Both the position numbers and the translations under genes were made by a program. Shown here piece after piece: positions 2,564 to 56,663 of a DNA stretch of 64,000 nucleotides. Within the stretch, counting starts at the first letter, position 1. Each line of letters starts with the position of its first letter. The stretch lies in NCBI RefSeq assembly GCF_016862795.1, contig NZ_BONQ01000004.1, forward strand, positions 1-64,000. Direction: 5' to 3'. Below the pieces are notes generated by a model. It was not told the DNA's origin. It did no database searches and worked only from the letters and a program-made list of their open reading frames with translations. This DNA comes from Dactylosporangium siamense. GTDB lineage: Bacteria; Actinomycetota; Actinomycetes; Mycobacteriales; Micromonosporaceae.

Positions 2564-4636
2564 TCAGGCGTCGATGTTCTCTTGGTCGACCCGCGGCGCG
2601 GCGTCGATGAGCCAGTTGCGGCGGGGCTCGACCCGCTCACCCATGAGCAGCTCGAGGACCTCTTCGGCCTTCTCGACGTCGTCGAGGGTGATGCGCCGCA
2701 CGGCCCGGGTCGCCGGGTTCATCGTCGTGTCCCACAGCTCGTCGGCGTCCATCTCACCGAGACCCTTGAACCGCGGGATCGGCGTGACGACCTGCTTGTT
2801 GGCCTTCTCCAGCCGGGTGACGGTGCTGACCATCTCCTGCTGCGTGTACGTGTAGATCGTCTCGGGGTTGCGGCCCTTGGTGACGATCTTGTGCAGGGGC
2901 GGGACGGCGGCGTAGAGCCGGCCGTCGGCGATCGCCGGGCGCATGTACTTGGCGAACAGCGTGATGAGCAGCGTGCGGATGTGCGAGCCGTCGACGTCGG
3001 CGTCGGCCATGATCAGGATTCGCCCGTAGCGCATCGACTCGAGGTCGAACGTGCGGCCGGAGCCGGCGCCGAGCACCTGCACGATCGCGGAGCACTCCGC
3101 GTTGTCCAGGACCTGCTGGATGTTGGCCTTCTGCACGTTGAGGATCTTGCCGCGGATCGGCAGCAGCGCCTGATACTCCGAGGAGCGGGCCATCCGGGCG
3201 GTGCCGAGGGCGCTGTCGCCCTCGACGATGAACAGCTCGCTGCGCTGCACGCCGGTGGAGCGGCAGTCGACCAGTTTCGCCGGCATCGACGCGCCTTCAA
3301 GCGCCGTCTTGCGCCGGGCGGCGTCCTTCTGCTGCTTCTGGGTGAGGCGCACCCGCGCCGCGTCGACGATCTTCTGCAGGACGGTGCGGGCCTCGACCTT
3401 GGTCTTGCGGGCCTCGACCCACGCCTTCACCTGCTGCTCGACGATCGCCTGCACGACCCGGGTGACCGGCGCCGTGGACAGCTCGTCCTTGGTCTGCGAC
3501 GTGAACTGCGGCTCGGGGATCCGCACGTGGATGACCGCCGTCATGCCCTCGAGCACGTCGTCGAGGGTCGGCAGGTCCTCCTTCGGCCGCAGCAGGCCGC
3601 GGGTGTTGCGGATCGCGTCGGCGAGCGCCCGCAGCGCGCCGCGCTCGAAGCCGCGGCGGTGCGTGCCGCCGTGCACGTTGCGGATCGTGTTGGTGAACGA
3701 CTCCACGATCCGCTCATAGCCGGTGCCCCAGCGCAGCGCGATCTCGATCTCGGCGCGGCGCTCGACGTTGGCCTTCATCACGCCGTTCTCGTCGGCGGCG
3801 TTCTCCTTGTAGGTGCCCTCGCCGGTGATGTGCAGCATGCCGCAGACGGCCCGGTCGCCGGACGGCGCCAGGAACTCGACCATGTCGGCGAGGCCGTTGG
3901 GATATTGGAACGTCTCGGTCGCGATCTGCCCGCCGGTCGCGTCCTTGAGCACATAGGCCACGCCGGGGACGAGGAACGCGGTGTTGCGCAGCTTGGTGCG
4001 GACCGTCTCGACGTCGAGCGTGGCGCCGGTCTCGAAGTAGCGGGCGTCGTGCCAGTAGCGGATCGACGTGCCGGCGGACTGGCCCCGCTTCATCCGGCCG
4101 GTGACGCTGAGCCCCGAGCGGCGGGTGAACGGCGCGGCCGGTCCGGTGCCGTCGAAGTCGCCGGGGACGCCGTGCTGGAAGGCCATGTGGTGGACCTTGC
4201 CGTCGCGGCGCACGGTGACGTCGAAGCGGTGCGACAGGGCGTTGACCGCGGACGCGCCGACGCCGTGCAGGCCGCCGGAGGTCTTGTAGCCCGACCCGCC
4301 GAACTTGCCGCCGGCGTGCAGCCGGGTCAGCACCAGCTCGACCCCGGACATGCCCGACTTCGCGTGCACGCCGACGGGGATGCCACGACCGTCGTCGTCG
4401 ACCTGGACGGAACCGTCGGCGTGCAGGGTCACCTCGACGCGGGTCGCGTGGCCCGCGATGCCCTCGTCGGTGGAGTTGTCGACGATCTCGTTGAACAGGT
4501 GAGCGACGCCGCGGCTGTCGGTCGAGCCGATGTACATGCCGGGCCGCTTGCGGACAGCGTCCAGCCCTTCGAGGAGCGTGAGGTCGTCAGCCCCGTACAA
4601 GGTCTCGGGTTGTGCGGTCAACTCGATGCTCTCCAA
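2564..4636 (-). CDS. parE: Topoisomerase IV / GyrB-like subunit B (ATPase)
   Basis: This is the ATPase subunit that partners the downstream parC-like protein. The GHKL ATPase motifs are visible: EIVDNSTDEG for Mg-ATP binding, DDGRGIPVG, and GLHGVGASAVNALS in the lid. The TOPRIM domain shows EGDSALGTARMARSSEYQ and the metal-binding MADADVDGSHIR. At 690 aa it matches GyrB/ParE proteins lacking the gamma-proteobacterial insertion. The apparent start is TTG (protein begins MESIELTAQPETLYGADDL); no strong Shine-Dalgarno precedes it, so the exact start is uncertain. It is the first gene of a leftward operon, and the promoter must lie in the 243-nt divergent region shared with the chemotaxis gene. 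Confidence 0.9.
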   Translation of the reverse strand: MESIELTAQPETLYGADDLTLLEGLDAVRKRPGMYIGSTDSRGVAHLFNEIVDNSTDEGIAGHATRVEVTLHADGSVQVDDDGRGIPVGVHAKSGMSGVELVLTRLHAGGKFGGSGYKTSGGLHGVGASAVNALSHRFDVTVRRDGKVHHMAFQHGVPGDFDGTGPAAPFTRRSGLSVTGRMKRGQSAGTSIRYWHDARYFETGATLDVETVRTKLRNTAFLVPGVAYVLKDATGGQIATETFQYPNGLADMVEFLAPSGDRAVCGMLHITGEGTYKENAADENGVMKANVERRAEIEIALRWGTGYERIVESFTNTIRNVHGGTHRRGFERGALRALADAIRNTRGLLRPKEDLPTLDDVLEGMTAVIHVRIPEPQFTSQTKDELSTAPVTRVVQAIVEQQVKAWVEARKTKVEARTVLQKIVDAARVRLTQKQQKDAARRKTALEGASMPAKLVDCRSTGVQRSELFIVEGDSALGTARMARSSEYQALLPIRGKILNVQKANIQQVLDNAECSAIVQVLGAGSGRTFDLESMRYGRILIMADADVDGSHIRTLLITLFAKYMRPAIADGRLYAAVPPLHKIVTKGRNPETIYTYTQQEMVSTVTRLEKANKQVVTPIPRFKGLGEMDADELWDTTMNPATRAVRRITLDDVEKAEEVLELLMGERVEPRRNWLIDAAPRVDQENIDA

Positions 4637-20829: not shown

Positions 20830-20951
20830 AACCCCTCTGACGTGGAACTTTCACGGCAGGTGCCTTGTCCCACCGCACCGGCGACGTCGACGCTTGCCAA
20901 TGCGCGAAGCCCGTGGGAACACTGCGCTCACCTCATGTGAGGAGGAGCACA

Positions 20952-22067
20952 TTGCGCCCAATGTGGAGCGTCGTCGCGGCCATCGCCGTCGGCGCCGTCG
21001 CGGTTCTCGTGGTGCCCGCCCCGGCGGGGGCCCACGGTGTCGCCATGGTGCCCGGCAGCCGCACCTATCTGTGCTATGTGGACGGGCTGCGAGCCAACGG
21101 CCAGATCATCCCGTCCAACCCCGCCTGCGCCGACGCCGTCGCGCAGGGCGGCCAGCAGCCGCTGTACGACTGGTTCGGCGTGCTGCGCTCCGACGCCGGC
21201 GGCCGCACGACCGGCTACATCCCCGACGGCCAGATCTGCGGGGCGGGCACGACGAAGTACGCCGCGTACAACGCCGCCCGCACCGACTGGCCGCTCACCC
21301 ACCTGACCGCCGGCTCGACGATCCAGCTGCGCTACAGCAACTGGGCCGCGCACCCCGGCACGTTCCACCTGTACGTCACCCGCAACGGCTGGAGCCCCAC
21401 CACCCCGCTCGCGTGGGGTGACCTGGAGCCGTTCTGGAGTGCGACCGACCCGCCGCAGTCCGGGCCGCCCGGCGCGCTCAACTACTACTCGTTCAACACC
21501 ACCCTGCCGGCGGGCAAGACCGGCCGGCACATGCTGTTCATCCAGTGGGTTCGCTCCGACAGCCAGGAGAACTTCTTCAGCTGCTCGGACATCGTCTTCG
21601 ACGGCGGCAACGGCGAGGTGACCGGCATCAACAACCCGCCCACCTCACCGTCGGCGTCCGTGTCGCCGTCGCGGTCCGTCTCACCGTCACCGTCAAGGTC
21701 GGTCTCGCCGTCGCCGTCACGGTCCGCGTCGTCCTCACCGCCACCGTCCGGCGGGTCCGGCGGGTGCACCGCGACCTGGCGGATCGTGCCCAGCTCGTGG
21801 GCCGGGCACTTCCAGGCCGAGGTCACGGTCCGCAACAGCGGATCAGCGAGCCTGAACGGGTGGACCGTGCGCTGGACGTACCAGGGCGGAGAGGGCTTCG
21901 AAGGCTCGCCCTGGAACGGCACCCTGGTCGGTCAACCGCCGAACGTCGCGGTCAGCAACGTCGACTGGAACAGGGTCCTGGCCGCCGGCGCCACGACGTC
22001 GTTCGGGTTCAACGCCACCGGCACGGCCCCGGCGACCGCACCGACGCTGAGCTGCACCAGCCAATGA
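20952..22067 (+). CDS. Secreted AA10 lytic polysaccharide monooxygenase with CBM2
   Basis: This is a copper enzyme that oxidatively cleaves crystalline chitin or cellulose outside the cell. A signal peptide (WSVVAAIAVGAVAVLVVPAPAGA) ends so that His becomes residue 1 of the mature protein (HGVAMVPGSR), the first leg of the copper histidine brace. The second His is in YSNWAAHPGTFHLYVT, and the axial Phe region is NFFSCSDIVF. A Ser/Pro linker (SPSPSRSVSPS type) leads to a C-terminal CBM2 (CTATWRIVPSSWAGHFQAEVTVRN, then LNGWTVRWTY). I prefer the TTG at 20952 because AGGAGG lies 6 nt upstream; the ATG at 20961 is the alternative. It is coupled by ATGA to the next gene. Confidence 0.9.
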   Translation: MRPMWSVVAAIAVGAVAVLVVPAPAGAHGVAMVPGSRTYLCYVDGLRANGQIIPSNPACADAVAQGGQQPLYDWFGVLRSDAGGRTTGYIPDGQICGAGTTKYAAYNAARTDWPLTHLTAGSTIQLRYSNWAAHPGTFHLYVTRNGWSPTTPLAWGDLEPFWSATDPPQSGPPGALNYYSFNTTLPAGKTGRHMLFIQWVRSDSQENFFSCSDIVFDGGNGEVTGINNPPTSPSASVSPSRSVSPSPSRSVSPSPSRSASSSPPPSGGSGGCTATWRIVPSSWAGHFQAEVTVRNSGSASLNGWTVRWTYQGGEGFEGSPWNGTLVGQPPNVAVSNVDWNRVLAAGATTSFGFNATGTAPATAPTLSCTSQ

Positions 22068-22798: not shown

Positions 22799-22857
22799 GC
22801 GCCCCCGGCGCAGGCGCGGGCCGCGAACCCGCGCCTGCGTCGGGTATGCATGGACGC

Positions 22858-23625
22858 GTGACAGCGAACATGGCATGGCCCGGCGGGCGCAACGTCCGCG
22901 ACCTCGGCGGCAGGGCGTTGCGCGACGGCGGGGTCACCCGGTCCGGGCTGGTGTTCCGCTCGGCCGCACCCGAGCACCTCACCGACGCCGGCTGGGCGGC
23001 GGCCCGGGCCACCGGGATCCGCACGGTGGTGGACCTGCGCAACGCGCCGACGGAGACCGGCCGCACCGCGGACCACCCGGTCATCCGGGCCGACTCGCTC
23101 GACGGGCTGGTCTTCGTCGCCGCGCCGACCGAGGACCCGGACGACGCCGAGTTCCTGCGGGTCTGCGGCCCGTGGCTCGATCATCCCCGCTCGTGGGCGG
23201 ACAACGCACGGCTCGCCCCGGCGCGGGTCGCGGGCGCCGTGCGGGCCGTCGCGGCGGCGCGGCCGGCGGTGCTCGTGCACTGCGCCGGCGGCCGGGACCG
23301 CACCGGCATGATCTGCGCGATGCTGCTGGTCCTGGCCGGTGCCACCGCTGACGCCGTCGTCGACGACTACGCCGACGGGTGGCGGGGCGCCGGGGCATAC
23401 GAGGGACACGGCTGGGTCTACGACCTGCAGCGGCAGACCTGGGACCGGCGGCATCTGCCGGCCGCGGAGCCGGCGGAGCTCGACCGTCAGGTGGCCGAGC
23501 GCGTCCCCGCAGTGCGGGAGTGGATCCGCACGTTCGACACCGAAGCGTTCCTGCGCTCGGCCGGGCTCTCCGGGCCGGAGCTGGACACCCTGCGGGCGCT
23601 GCTGCGACCGCTCAGCGGATCCTGA
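22858..23625 (+). CDS. Tyrosine-protein phosphatase (DSP/PtpB-like)
   Basis: This is a 255-aa phosphatase of the cysteine-dependent class. The P-loop VLVHCAGGRDRTGMICAMLL matches HCX5R with Cys nucleophile and Arg. The N-terminal GGRNVRDLGG and LVFRSAAPEHLTDAGW plus IRTVVDLRNAPTE are signatures of the actinobacterial PtpB/lipid-phosphatase-like family (Tyr_phosphatase3). Such enzymes act on phosphotyrosine or phosphoinositides. The start could be GTG 22858, ATG 22846 or ATG 22870; I chose GTG. The 3' end overlaps the convergent Hsp70-DnaJ gene by 14 nt. Confidence 0.88.
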   Translation: MTANMAWPGGRNVRDLGGRALRDGGVTRSGLVFRSAAPEHLTDAGWAAARATGIRTVVDLRNAPTETGRTADHPVIRADSLDGLVFVAAPTEDPDDAEFLRVCGPWLDHPRSWADNARLAPARVAGAVRAVAAARPAVLVHCAGGRDRTGMICAMLLVLAGATADAVVDDYADGWRGAGAYEGHGWVYDLQRQTWDRRHLPAAEPAELDRQVAERVPAVREWIRTFDTEAFLRSAGLSGPELDTLRALLRPLSGS

Positions 23626-25486
23626 TCGTGACCAGGAGGGCACCGCCGGGGCGGGCGCCACGGTCGGGGACGCGCATCGTCCGGCCGTCCGGGATGTCCT
23701 TCGGCAGGCGGATCTCGACCGTGCCGGTGGTGGTCGGGACCGTGACGACGGCGCCGGAGCGGGCCTGTTCCCCGGTGACGTCGAGGGTGTACAGGTAGTC
23801 GTCGCCCTGCCGCTGGAAGCCCTCGTGCGGGTCGACGAGGACCCGGACGAACAGGTCACCGGCCGGGCCGCCGGGGTCCGGGCTGGGATGCCCGCGGCCG
23901 GACAGCCGGACCCGCTGCCGGTCGCCGATCCCGGCCGGCAGTCGCACCTTCAGGGTCCGCCGGCCCAGCGCGCCGGTCAGCCCCGAGCCGCGGCAGGTGC
24001 CGCAGGTCGCGCCGCGGATCACGCCGCCGGCGACGCCGGTGCCCTTGCAGGGCACGCACAGGGTGGGCCAGTTCATGTTCAGCACGACGACGCCCTCGCG
24101 GACCTGGGCCTTGGTCAGCACGACGTCGGTCTCGTGGTTGCGGCCGGGCCGCAGCGGCGCGCGCGTCTTCGCGGTGCCGAAGAACTCGTCCATGATCTCT
24201 TTGAACCCGGCCCCGCTGTACGCCTCCGGCGGGTCCGGCTGCGAATCCGTGACCTTGGTGAAAGGCGGCGGCACCTCCGCAACCGGCGGCGGCACCTCCG
24301 CAACCGGCGGCGGCACCTCCGCAACCGGCGGCGGCACCTCCGCGACCGGCGGCGGCATCTCCGAAACAGGCGGCACGGTCAGTGGCACGGTGAACGGCGA
24401 GGTCGGCGCCGACCCGGTCAGCGTGACCAGGCCGCCGTGCGCGACCACCAGCTCCGGCTGCTCGATCACGACCGGCGCCAGCCGCAGCGCCCGGTGCAGC
24501 ATCGTCGCCACCAGCGGGGTCCGGCTCGCGCCGCCGACCAGGAACACCCCGGTGAGACGGTCGGCGGGGACCTTGCTGGCGGCGATCGTGTCGCGGGTCA
24601 GGCGCACCGTGCGTTCCAGCCACGGCTGGGCGAACGTCTCGTACTCGCTCCTGGTGAGGTGCGCGTCGACGTCGAGGACCGGCACGGCCAGGTCGGCGGT
24701 GGTGCCCCGGGACAGCTGCTCCTTCGCCGCCCGGGCGTCGTCCCACAGGTGCCGGCGGTGGCGCCGATCGGCCGGGCTCTGCGGGGCGAGCAGCCGCTGC
24801 CAGGTGGGGTCGTCGGGGCGCACGGTGCGCCGCGCCCAGTCCACGACCGCGGCGTCGAGGTCGACCCCGCCGACGTCGAGGCCGTCGGCGGCGGCCACGT
24901 CCCAGGCGTCGTCGCCGGTGCGGCGGACCACGCTCACGTCGAACGTGCCGCCGCCGAAGTCGTACACGACGATGGCGTCGCCGTGGCGCACCTGGTGACC
25001 GAGGACGGTGGTGAAGTACGCCGCCGCGGCGACGGGTTCGCTGACCAGTTCGACGCCGGTGAGGCCGGCCGCCGACGCGGCGGCGGACAGCACGCCACGC
25101 CGCTGCGGTCCCCACCCGGCCGGGCAGGTGAGCACGGTCCGCGCGGGCGCCGACCCGCCGAGGGTGCGAGCCGCCTCCTCGCGGACCCGGCGCAGCACCG
25201 CCGCGCAGGCGTCGACCACGCCGATCTCGGCGTCGCCGAGCAGCAGCGTGCCCTCGTCGAGGCGCCGTTTCGGGTTGGGTTCGTATCTGGCCGGGTCGGC
25301 CCTGGCGGAGCGGTCCGCGTCCCGGCCGACCAGCAGCCGGCCGTCGGTGCCGGCGAAGACCGCGGAGGACAGCAACGGCGAAGCGTCGAACAGCAGCGGC
25401 TCGACCCGGCCGTCGGCGCGGGCGAGCACCGCCACGGTGTGCGACGTGCCGAAGTCGAGGGCGAGACCGGGCGCGATCGACGTCAC
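23612..25486 (-). CDS. Hsp70 ATPase domain fused to DnaJ zinc-finger/C-terminal domain
   Basis: This 624-aa chimeric chaperone has a DnaK-type nucleotide-binding domain at residues 1-370: LDFGTSHTVAVLA (phosphate 1), VVYDFGGGTFDVSVV (phosphate 2) and GVFLVGGASRTPLVA (adenosine). The usual Hsp70 peptide-binding domain is absent. It is replaced by a PPPVAEV repeat linker (about 373-407), a DnaJ-like GFKEIMDEFFG, two cysteine motifs (CVPCKGTG and CGTCRGSG, about 476-500; DnaJ normally has four) and a DnaJ C-terminal beta-domain (VRLPAGIGDRQRVRLSGRG, GDLFVRVLVDPHEGFQRQGDDL-type). No J domain or HPD is present, so it cannot stimulate Hsp70 in the usual way. The start is GTG. It is divergent from a methyltransferase. 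Confidence 0.9.
   Translation of the reverse strand: MTSIAPGLALDFGTSHTVAVLARADGRVEPLLFDASPLLSSAVFAGTDGRLLVGRDADRSARADPARYEPNPKRRLDEGTLLLGDAEIGVVDACAAVLRRVREEAARTLGGSAPARTVLTCPAGWGPQRRGVLSAAASAAGLTGVELVSEPVAAAAYFTTVLGHQVRHGDAIVVYDFGGGTFDVSVVRRTGDDAWDVAAADGLDVGGVDLDAAVVDWARRTVRPDDPTWQRLLAPQSPADRRHRRHLWDDARAAKEQLSRGTTADLAVPVLDVDAHLTRSEYETFAQPWLERTVRLTRDTIAASKVPADRLTGVFLVGGASRTPLVATMLHRALRLAPVVIEQPELVVAHGGLVTLTGSAPTSPFTVPLTVPPVSEMPPPVAEVPPPVAEVPPPVAEVPPPVAEVPPPFTKVTDSQPDPPEAYSGAGFKEIMDEFFGTAKTRAPLRPGRNHETDVVLTKAQVREGVVVLNMNWPTLCVPCKGTGVAGGVIRGATCGTCRGSGLTGALGRRTLKVRLPAGIGDRQRVRLSGRGHPSPDPGGPAGDLFVRVLVDPHEGFQRQGDDYLYTLDVTGEQARSGAVVTVPTTTGTVEIRLPKDIPDGRTMRVPDRGARPGGALLVTIRIR
24264..24368 (-). repeat. 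21-bp tandem repeat, PPPVAEV linker
   Basis: Five 21-bp units start at 24264, 24285, 24306, 24327 and 24348. The first three are identical and the last is degenerate. They encode PPPVAEV on the minus strand and form the hinge between the Hsp70 ATPase and DnaJ-like halves. The period keeps the frame. Confidence 0.95.
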
Positions 25487-25606
25487 TGTCGCAGCCTATC
25501 GACGTCACGCACGCCGGGCGCGGCCCGAAACGCCGCCGCGAGCGGCCGGGAACCGGAAACACGCCCCGCAGGCACCGAAATCGGGCGGTCACGATAGGGT
25601 CCGGCG

Positions 25607-26353
25607 ATGATCGATGAGGACGGCTATTTCGGGGAGCGGGTCGCGGCCCGGTACGACGAGTCGTCGAGGGAGATGGCGGACCCCGCGGTCGTGCAGCCGG
25701 CCGTCGACACGCTCGCCAAGCTCGCCGACGGCGGCCGGGCCCTGGAGCTGGGCATCGGCACGGGTCGTATCGCGCTGCCGCTCGCCGCCCGCGGCGTGCC
25801 GGTGCACGGCATCGACCTGTCCCGGGCCATGGTGGCCCGGCTGCGCGAGAAGCCCGGCGGCGAGGCGATCAGCGTCACGATCGGCGACTTCGCCACGGCC
25901 CGGGTCGACGCGGCGTTCTCCGTGGCGTACCTGGTCTTCAACACGATCATGAATCTGACGACCCAGGCGGCGCAGGTCGCCTGCTTCCGCAACGTGGCGG
26001 CGCACCTGCAGCCCGGCGGCCGGTTCGTCGTCGAGGTGATGATGCCGGACCTGCGGCGGCTCCCACCGGGCCAGGACGTCGTGCCGTTCCACGTGAGCAA
26101 GACCCGCTGGGCCTACGACCTGTACGACGTCGCCACCCAGTCGATGAGCTCCAACTACGTCGAGGTCTCCGGCGGCCGCGGCGGCTTCCGCTCCATCCCG
26201 TTCCGCTACGTGTGGCCCGCCGAACTGGACCTGATGGCGCAGATGGCCGGCCTGCACCTGCAGCACCGCTGGTCGGGCTGGGACCAGGAGCCGTTCACCA
26301 GCGACAGCACCCAGCACGTCTCCGTCTGGGAGAAGCCCCTGCTGCCGGAGTGA
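25607..26353 (+). CDS. SAM-dependent methyltransferase (class I)
   Basis: This is a 248-aa class I methyltransferase. Motif I is ALELGIGTGRIALPLAARG (about residues 47-65), motif II VPVHGIDLSRAMVARLR with the acidic residue binding the SAM ribose, and motif III LQPGGRFVVEVMMPDL. The N-terminus FGERVAARYDESSREM resembles the ubiE/BioC-like group. The substrate is unknown and no biosynthetic genes surround it. It begins MIDEDGYFGER, 120 nt from the divergent Hsp70-DnaJ gene. Confidence 0.88.
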   Translation: MIDEDGYFGERVAARYDESSREMADPAVVQPAVDTLAKLADGGRALELGIGTGRIALPLAARGVPVHGIDLSRAMVARLREKPGGEAISVTIGDFATARVDAAFSVAYLVFNTIMNLTTQAAQVACFRNVAAHLQPGGRFVVEVMMPDLRRLPPGQDVVPFHVSKTRWAYDLYDVATQSMSSNYVEVSGGRGGFRSIPFRYVWPAELDLMAQMAGLHLQHRWSGWDQEPFTSDSTQHVSVWEKPLLPE

Positions 26354-26437
26354 CGCATGCCCGACACGCGCCGTTTTTGACCCGGGGACGGTTGCCCGGA
26401 AGGATCGGTGCGGCGTTCGGGGATGGGGGGCACCGCA

Positions 26438-27064
26438 ATGCGCAACCGGCGGGTGAGTCTGCTGGACATCGGGCTGGACCAGTCGTTCGACGCCTCGATG
26501 GCCTTCGTCCAGTCGACCCTGCAGAGCATCAACGCCGGCCTGCCGGAGTCGATCGTGGACATCGACTTCGTGCGGTCCCGGGACCTCGACACGGTCCTGG
26601 CCGCGTTCACCGCGCCGTGCGACGTCCTGCACGTGATGGCGCACGGCGATCACGGCGAGACCCCGATGTTCAGTAGCACCGACGGCAAGACCGCCATCTC
26701 GTTGGAGGCGATCGGTGACTACTCCGCCGACCGTGGCAGCGGGCTCAACGCGAGCGCCGTGCTCGCCGACGGGTGCAAGACCGGCATCGGCGCGTGGCAG
26801 CGGGCGCTGCGCAACTGCCTGCACGGGGAGATCGTCTACATCGGCTCGTCCGCCCTGGTCGGCTGGCACGAGAGCACCGTGTTCTGCTCGGCGTTCTACG
26901 GCGCGTTGTTCCGCAACAAGGGCAAGGGCTCGACCCCGGCCGAGCAGGCGTGGGACGCGGCCAGCCGGGCGATCGAGGCATACGCGGCGATCACCGACCG
27001 GGTCTGCCCCTACAAGGTGATGGTGCTGGAGCCGAGCCGCCAGGCCCGCCTGGCGTTCAGATAA
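26438..27064 (+). CDS. Caspase/CHAT-like protein (putative)
   Basis: This is a 208-aa protein with a layout like the caspase-fold (C14/CHAT) hydrolases. The His-bearing strand is CDVLHVMAHGDHGETPMFSS, followed after about 60 residues by a Cys-bearing strand ASAVLADGCKTGIGAWQRAL. Then comes VYIGSSALVGWHESTVFCSAFYGALF, typical of the specificity loop. His-Gly and Asp-Gly-Cys are placed as the catalytic dyad. The family call rests on motif pattern only. The start is ATG 26438, preceded by a G-rich Shine-Dalgarno; ATG 26423 and GTG 26408 are alternatives. No EAD, TPR or NTPase partner gene is adjacent; the next gene follows after 38 nt. Confidence 0.55.
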   Translation: MRNRRVSLLDIGLDQSFDASMAFVQSTLQSINAGLPESIVDIDFVRSRDLDTVLAAFTAPCDVLHVMAHGDHGETPMFSSTDGKTAISLEAIGDYSADRGSGLNASAVLADGCKTGIGAWQRALRNCLHGEIVYIGSSALVGWHESTVFCSAFYGALFRNKGKGSTPAEQAWDAASRAIEAYAAITDRVCPYKVMVLEPSRQARLAFR

Positions 27065-28746: not shown

Positions 28747-28805
28747 CCGGCCGGCGCCCGCGGGCGCCCGGGCCCGCGGCCGCCACGGTGGGGTGGGTTC
28801 CTCAT

Positions 28806-28930
28806 GTCACGTCATCGGGCCTTGGCGTGCAACTGACTGTCACGTCATCGGGCCCTGGCGTGCAACAGGCTGTCACGTCATCGGGCCCTGGCGTGCAACA
28901 GGCTGTCACGTCATCGGGCCCTGGCGTGCA
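28806..28930 (-). repeat. 33-bp tandem repeat duplicating the erm 3' end and stop codon
   Basis: Units start at 28806, 28839, 28872 and 28905 (core GTCACGTCATCGGGCCCTGG). The fourth is the genuine end of the erm gene, whose last codons and TGA read LLHARAR-stop; each upstream-lying copy repeats these codons and the stop. There are no spacers, so it is not a CRISPR. The rest of the 28747-28910 gap shows nothing else. Confidence 0.95.
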
Positions 28931-56024: not shown

Positions 56025-56663
56025 CCGTCCCTCTTCCGCCGCTGCCGTGCTCGGCGCCTGCCTTCGCTCCGCTCGCTTGCGCTCATCCGCGCCGCCCGGG
56101 GCGCCCGTCCACGCACGCCCGCCCACGCACGTCACTGCGGCGGTGGACCGGACGGTGCGGGCGCGAAACGCACGCCCGCCCAGGCCCGCCCACGCATGGC
56201 CCCCGCCCACGTACGGCCCGCCCACGCACGAACGCACGCCCGCCCAGGCCACTCACACACGCCTGCCCAGGGCCGCCCATGCACGGCCCCGCCCACGTAC
56301 GGCCCGCCCACGCACGAACGCACGCCCGCCCAGGCCCGCCCAGGCCCACCCAGGCCACTCACACACGCCTGCCCAGGGCCGCCCATGCACGGCCCCGCCC
56401 ACGCACGGCCCGCCCACACACGCCCAGGCCTGCCCAGGCCGCCCACGCACGGCCCGCCCACACACGCCCACGCACGGCCCCGCCCACGCACGCCCAGGCC
56501 TGCCCAGGCCGCTGACGCACGCCCGCCCAGGCCCGCCCACGCACGCCGCCCACGCACGCCGCCCGATTGCGCTGTCGACACGACGCCCGATCGCGCCGTC
56601 GAGGTGACGCCACCCGGGTCGTCCCGGGTGGGTCACCGTCGGACCCATCGCGGCGTGCGGTGG
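56025..56663. other. Convergent gap dominated by a minisatellite
   Basis: No gene is recognised in this 639-nt interval. It separates the phosphotransferase stop from the FAD-monooxygenase stop. Open frames run through it on both strands only because the C-rich repeat lacks stop codons. Confidence 0.7.
56105..56555. repeat. Complex CCCACGCACG-type minisatellite
   Basis: About 450 bp are built of CGCCCACGCACG / CGCCCAGGCC elements, arranged in longer units; GGCCACTCACACACGCC recurs at 56247 and 56353, 106 bp apart. The plus strand is nearly devoid of T and G-poor, and the minus strand G-rich. Nested copies imply repeated slippage or unequal exchange. Confidence 0.9.

Follow-up and report, generated by a model that had tools for sequence, protein, structure and literature searches.

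The 64,000-nucleotide stretch of Dactylosporangium siamense DNA analysed here (NCBI RefSeq assembly GCF_016862795.1, contig NZ_BONQ01000004.1, positions 1 to 64,000; hereafter the window) encodes on its minus strand a protein of 624 residues that joins an Hsp70-type nucleotide-binding domain (NBD) to the zinc-finger and C-terminal half of DnaJ, without a J domain. An earlier note, made from the sequence alone, had proposed such a fusion, and its core holds: the frame lies open where the note placed it (Table 1), and the protein matches both Pfam HSP70 (residues 94–352, 103.8 bits, cut-off 20.6) and Pfam DnaJ_C (PF01556, residues 508–622, 85.7 bits, cut-off 26.6). The HSP70 profile match ends at position 368 of 599, before the beta part of the peptide-binding substrate-binding domain (SBD) and the lid, and the NCBIfam prok_dnaK model gives 109.2 bits, far under its cut-off of 822.55. 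Neither a match to the J-domain profile PF00226 at E ≤ 1 nor an HPD motif was found in the 624 residues, and there are exactly two CxxCxGxG motifs (477–484 and 495–502) versus the four, forming two zinc sites, of class I DnaJ; on both points the note was right. The domain search that it suggested as a check gave DnaJ_C above its cut-off, while the DnaJ central domain (PF00684) appeared only as a trace of 11.7 bits (cut-off 32.7) because half of the zinc finger is missing.

The two halves are connected by a Pro-rich linker containing the PPPVAEV repeats already noticed, although four rather than five are exact, flanked by the degenerate units PPVSEM and PPPFTKV. At the DNA level Tandem Repeats Finder (TRF) reports 5.3 copies of 21 bp with 94% matches. 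The G+C content at third codon positions (GC3) is 0.96 in the NBD, 0.86 in the linker and 0.97 in the C-terminal half, values that fit a continuous coding sequence. A scan of positions 23000–26000 for sigma-70-type promoters and terminators returned none, a result that says little here.

Table 1. Position of the fusion gene and its parts in the window
Feature	Positions	Strand	Residues and remarks
Complete fusion gene	23612..25486	minus	624 aa; GTG start at 25486, TGA stop at 23612–23614
Hsp70-type nucleotide-binding domain	24407..25486	minus	1–360, end estimated; Pfam HSP70 94–352, phmmer to DnaK structures
Pro-rich linker, without DVLLLD motif	24218..24406	minus	361–423
Four exact PPPVAEV units	24272..24355	minus	378–405; TRF array 24264–24374
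Remnant of DnaJ G/F region (GFKEIMDEFFG)	24146..24217	minus	424–447; nearest at DNA level is L038, the cell's other DnaJ
First strands of DnaJ CTD1	24059..24145	minus	448–476; alignment to own DnaJ and Ydj1 (1nlt)
CxxCxGxG motif in place of DnaJ motif 1 (CVPCKGTG)	24035..24058	minus	477–484
CxxCxGxG motif (CGTCRGSG), most likely in place of DnaJ motif 4	23981..24004	minus	495–502; motif 4 from inference
Remainder of CTD1	23828..23971	minus	506–553; Pfam DnaJ_C 508–622; CTD1/CTD2 boundary estimated
CTD2, without DnaJ dimerisation tail	23615..23827	minus	554–624; alignment to own DnaJ

The fusion is a real gene. A genome of another genus, assembled in one contig (G357), carries an ortholog of the same architecture that has 535 residues, also starts with GTG at the equivalent place and is 69% identical over query residues 1–552, with 81.9% identity in the NBD and 52.5% in residues 430–556. 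Its linker differs from that of the window protein, and both zinc motif places are kept (CAVCRGTG and CTACGHSG) with all four cysteines. The G357 protein ends with LLITIRIR after the first DnaJ C-terminal domain (CTD1), the window protein with LLVTIRIR after the second (CTD2); the lack of CTD2 in G357 is read as an in-frame loss. A frameshift or assembly join as the source of the fusion is very unlikely, given the open frame, the GC3 values and above all the independent ortholog in a one-contig genome of another genus. Nor is a recent transfer between the two genera supported: the synonymous divergence (dS) between the two genomes is 0.405 for the fusion NBD, close to that of dnaK (0.390) and a clpB-like gene (0.445), and below that of dnaJ (0.661) and a grpE-like gene (0.636), the clpB-like and grpE-like genes having been named by eye. 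The history of the gene is nevertheless patchy, as synteny is absent and neither the six remaining genomes of its own genus nor the five remaining ones of G357's genus contain it.

How common the fusion is had been left open in the earlier note. The C-terminal 207 residues matched six of 354 genomes of the same family at E ≤ 1e-28 (the own genome, G357, G356, G032, G010 and G372). Most search loci comprised the match and 1.5 kb on each side, less at contig ends, and among the 81 loci L043–L123 a single gene, that of G357 (held as L084, L087 and L089), combined the C-terminal match with the NBD, which puts the fusion in 2 of the 354 genomes. The order was sampled with 397 genomes and the phylum with 396 (E ≤ 1e-27); besides the own gene, these searches yielded 28 and 5 genomes, respectively, with single matches of about 98–104 bits and no further fusion. 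In the order sample the NBD was absent from all loci of the 28 genomes (frames of 280–727 residues), and the five phylum frames (389–407 residues), judged by length alone, are too short. Ordinary dnaJ reaches the search threshold, and a fusion with a more diverged DnaJ half would escape it, so the architecture is rare rather than absent elsewhere. No relative was found among the viral contigs searched, PADLOC gave no match to the protein, and no plasmid record covered 80% of it in one place. The C-terminal half had at most 39% identity in the 15 plasmid rows listed, annotated as dnaJ or cbpA where annotated, and the named genome collection gave at least three distant DnaJ loci among the matches listed. 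We found no description of the architecture in the literature searched, which mostly lay outside subscription journals.

The NBD itself, DnaK-type in the earlier note, is not that of DnaK and belongs to a separate Hsp70-NBD family. The own genome contains 43 stretches matching this family, 24 of them at E ≤ 1e-60 including the window gene, and the long paralog matches are 43–57% identical to the window NBD. We aligned 26 paralog rows of the own genome (L009–L032) with the window protein, the G357 ortholog and the cell's DnaK. In 22 of the 26 rows a hydropathy scan predicted that a transmembrane (TM) segment follows the NBD. Of the remaining rows, L024 runs off the end of its contig, L032 is short and broken, L029 has a hydrophobic stretch that by eye lies under the threshold, and L030 shows no such stretch. 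The tails of the window and G357 proteins show no hydropathy peak. Pro makes up 29% of the first 80 tail residues in the window protein, 14% in G357 and 7–36% in own paralogs with a tail, so that a Pro-rich linker is true of most family members, not of each. Pfam recognised tails above cut-off in 5 of 24 rows scanned, L024 and L032 being left out: WD40 twice, Kelch, LCCL and Peripla_BP_6. As an observation in its own right, the 26 further rows mostly follow the order NBD, linker, TM segment and outer part, a receptor-like layout that resembles bacterial receptor kinases, with the Hsp70 NBD in place of the kinase. Plasmid relatives of the family are annotated 'Hsp70 family protein', and the literature searched held no description of these mostly membrane-anchored proteins.

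A tree of 45 rows groups the two fusions in a single clade (100/100), whose sister group (100/98) consists of two proteins from other genomes of the same genus; by eye, their tails are Pro-rich and then multi-TM. The cell's DnaK sits on a very long separate branch. With membrane tails on its sister proteins, the fusion is most simply explained by a DnaJ half that replaced such a tail, once, and not the lid and beta domain of an Hsp70 as the earlier note had it. One row tempers this. L032 (contig C207, about 2609–3534, minus strand) is a broken frame of 293 residues, 55.6% identical to the window protein over residues 8–133, and it continues after the start of the NBD with a DnaK-type linker, absent from the other 25 of the 26 family frames, and SBD-like sequence in two frames (51.7% identity to the cell's DnaK over 89 residues). 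On at least one other occasion, then, this type of NBD acquired or retained a chaperone-type tail. Derivation from a DnaK that lost its SBD is thus rejected for the fusion gene, on the tree, the membrane tails of its sisters and its linker; L032 bars the same claim for the whole family.

The equivalents of the DnaK ATP-site residues K70, E171, D194 and T199 are all kept in the window NBD, and weak ATP turnover is likely. The docking surface for J proteins is changed. The positions of DnaK D148, R167, N170 and T173 read P, E, S and V, while that of R151 by eye still reads R. In the 25 own rows aligned there, N170 and T173 are replaced throughout; several of these rows still have the R of R167, whose loss is therefore not a family trait. 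The four changed positions are among the DnaK residues involved in DnaJ binding or ATPase stimulation according to passages of PMC4022485, and R167 lies at the HPD contact according to passages of PMC7289447. The hydrophobic DVLLLD interdomain linker is also absent from the fusion, as judged from the alignment to the cell's own DnaK. We infer that J proteins do not drive the window NBD in the DnaK manner, and consider such driving unlikely.

Set beside the cell's own DnaJ (L033), the C-terminal half retains CTD1 and CTD2, has neither the J domain nor the tail that follows CTD2, and lacks two of the zinc motifs. It is 45% identical to the DnaJ encoded beside dnaK over query residues 48–205 (about 158 residues). 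By position, the first motif corresponds to DnaJ motif 1, coming after the CTD1 strand, and the second to DnaJ motif 4, coming just before the strand that follows the finger, a placement suggesting that the protein keeps zinc site I; other pairings were also obtained, MAFFT setting the second motif against motif 3 and HMMER setting both against motifs 3 and 4 of 6jzb. If right, this assignment fits the reported substrate-binding role of Zn Center I, Center II being assigned to interaction with DnaK (Linke 2003 as quoted in PMC4428491); the same source reports that deletion of the region had no dramatic effect. The half is a patchwork: residues 424–447 are closest to the genome's other DnaJ type, at DNA level too, with 86% identity over 36 nt to L038 and 78% over 73 nt to a second J-less fusion of the genome (on contig C90), and the later part resembles the dnaK-linked DnaJ. 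At the Ydj1 peptide pocket positions I116, L135, L137, L216 and F249, placed via the 1nlt alignment, the window protein has H, L, M, L and V; four of the five are hydrophobic here and, by eye, in G357.

Six genes of the own genome encode DnaJ_C (seven rows, two in one gene), and two of them, the window gene and the C90 frame, do so without a J domain. The C90 protein (L036:465-4889, plus strand) is a frame of 1475 residues whose caspase-like N-terminus scores 18.4 bits with Peptidase_C14 (cut-off 21.4). It also has sub-threshold AAA/NACHT and propeller matches, a Pro-rich linker, two DnaJ_C matches and four zinc motifs. In genome G356 (L088:5158-7275, contig C427) the caspase domain of one protein (Peptidase_C14 above cut-off at 37.1 bits) is followed by a Pro-rich linker and a J-less DnaJ half with four zinc motifs, and the protein ends without the dimerisation tail. 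As a query it gave some match at E ≤ 1e-70 in 258 genomes, ordinary dnaJ to judge by the matches listed; among those listed for the 354 family genomes the only full-length match was G356 itself. Together the three architectures hint at, without demonstrating, a use of the J-less DnaJ half as a client detector.

We tentatively favour, at rather less than even confidence, the view that the fusion is a soluble, ATP-gated binder of misfolded protein, acting as a sensor or a holder. A member of the mostly receptor-like Hsp70-NBD family would then carry, instead of a membrane module, the peptide-binding half of a housekeeping DnaJ stripped of its J domain. CTD1 with its single zinc site would capture exposed hydrophobic segments, and the flexible Pro-rich linker would tether it to the NBD, which would bind and probably hydrolyse ATP; the nucleotide state would decide the contacts of the NBD, with itself or with a partner, and damaged protein would be reported or held. 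The domain composition, the ancestry of the NBD, its kept ATP-site and changed J-docking residues and the missing parts are shown by the sequence, while zinc and peptide binding, ATPase activity, a partner and signalling are predictions. The view is supported by the variety of tails on this NBD family within the same genome and the multi-TM sisters of the fusion clade, by the kept ATP site and the low dN/dS of the NBD given below, by the four of four zinc cysteines kept in both orthologs despite the divergence around them, by the mostly hydrophobic pocket positions and what looks like zinc site I, and by the J-less DnaJ halves on the C90 and G356 proteins. ZnJ2, a zinc-finger protein likewise devoid of a J domain, holds substrates without DnaK according to passages of PMC5818400.

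Several observations weigh against a sensor or holder. No neighbour is conserved: frames of the window (5–50 kb) compared with 19 kb around the G357 gene gave a sole other match, of 41% identity. Neither HspR- nor HrcA-type elements were found in the window, the Ydj1 I116 position is H in the window protein and Y in G357, and a single-sequence AlphaFold2 model reached a mean pLDDT of 36.4, too low for use. The ratio of nonsynonymous to synonymous divergence (dN/dS; NG86, window versus G357, 95% intervals from 200 codon resamplings) is 0.28 (0.20–0.37) for the NBD and rises to 0.88 (0.58–1.39) in C-terminal residues 430–556 and 0.96 (0.60–1.60) in CTD1 plus finger (450–556), values from a single sequence pair whose high GC3 makes dS poorly estimated. 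The canonical dnaJ of the two genomes has 0.39 (0.23–0.66) in the same region, an interval overlapping slightly with that of the fusion, and 0.13 (0.06–0.23) in its CTD2. The dN intervals for CTD1 plus finger, 0.236–0.410 in the fusion and 0.109–0.230 in the canonical gene, do not overlap. Such figures speak against a strongly constrained DnaJ half, and the G357 ortholog, moreover, does without CTD2; both would be expected if this part had little or no function.

This near-neutral change is the main support for the strongest rival, unlikely in our judgement, in which the work is left to the NBD and the DnaJ half, a passenger picked up through recombination, is decaying and being shed step by step. 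The in-frame disappearance of CTD2 in G357 points the same way, as does the broken L032, which with its other chaperone tail shows that such chimeras decay. Both copies have nevertheless kept the open frame, the four cysteines and the framework of CTD1, fast change would also fit a recognition part switching its client, and the dN/dS intervals of the fusion and of canonical dnaJ, from one sequence pair, overlap slightly.

An improbable alternative is a self-contained ATP-driven chaperone whose DnaJ half hands clients to its own NBD, cycling without a J protein, which is close to the single-chain machine that the earlier note had envisaged. It would make use of ATP-site residues and a peptide-binding half in one chain, and an acidic residue stands where DnaK has R167, reminiscent of the DnaK variant R167D, for which PMC7289447 describes a defect in interdomain communication together with somewhat raised intrinsic ATPase. 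The chain lacks, however, an SBD or lid that could hold a client, the allosteric DVLLLD linker and a J domain, the J-docking residues are changed, and the near-neutral DnaJ half fits poorly; nothing was found that couples the halves mechanically. We know of no route by which CTD1 of a DnaJ would sense the NBD. Least probable is a modulator acting in trans on the cell's DnaK and DnaJ, for example a decoy competing with DnaJ for clients or partners, for although the half resembles the DnaJ beside dnaK and the cell encodes DnaK and four J-domain proteins with DnaJ_C, hetero-dimers with DnaJ are unlikely because the dimerisation tail is missing.

Returning to the soluble binder, a broader extension of it is doubtful: the J-less DnaJ half may be a portable detector of misfolded protein, Pro-linked to signalling or executioner proteins and triggering an unfolded-protein or damage response. 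Its carriers would be the receptor-like Hsp70-NBD proteins of the window and G357, the caspase-domain protein of G356 and the caspase-like C90 protein with its traces of ATPase and propeller. If the DnaJ half is indeed a detector, bacteria would have turned pieces of the chaperone machinery into damage sensors that feed signalling ATPases and caspase-like proteases. The fusion would separate client capture by a J protein from J-domain control of the ATPase, which usually go together: the half that captures clients persists, the one that exerts control has been lost, and the ATPase itself differs where J proteins would dock. The fusion further points to the large, mostly membrane-anchored Hsp70-NBD family.

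Other features of the window are recorded here. A plus-strand gene at about 22826–23625, by eye tyrosine-phosphatase-like (HCAGGRDRTG), is convergent with the fusion gene and overlaps its end by 14 bases. Further plus-strand genes encode a lytic polysaccharide monooxygenase with a cellulose-binding domain (20865–22067; LPMO_10, CBM_2) and a 218-residue protein (26408–27064) without Pfam or PADLOC match, in which LHVMAHGD and ADGC are by eye reminiscent of a caspase/CHAT-type His-Cys pair. At positions 28805–28930 a 33-bp unit is repeated 3.8 times (96% matches), next to a gene on the minus strand that by eye is rRNA adenine methyltransferase-like, and 56171–56560 hold a long GC-rich tandem array with periods of 10–106 bp.

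Among known systems, DnaK shares with the fusion the actin-like NBD and its ATP-site residues and differs in having an SBD, a lid, the DVLLLD linker and intact J-docking residues. The Hsp70-NBD proteins with other tails share the NBD clade, the linker and the variety of C-terminal modules; the fusion lacks their TM segment and has a DnaJ half. Class I DnaJ (Hsp40) is alike in CTD1, CTD2 and part of the zinc finger, and the fusion is without its J domain, two of its zinc motifs and its dimerisation tail. The chloroplast ZnJ2/BSD2 proteins also combine a DnaJ zinc finger with the lack of a J domain, but have four motifs and, in the description given in passages of PMC5818400, no further protein-binding or ATPase domain. 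The GAP1-N2 conflict systems of actinobacteria and firmicutes likewise bring SBD-less HSP70 and fusions of DnaJ domains into NTP-dependent signalling, as outlined in passages of PMC7159879; there, HSP70, GrpE and the fused DnaJ domain are encoded by separate genes, whereas in the window one gene unites the NBD with the client-binding half of DnaJ, and no such neighbours were recognised beside it.

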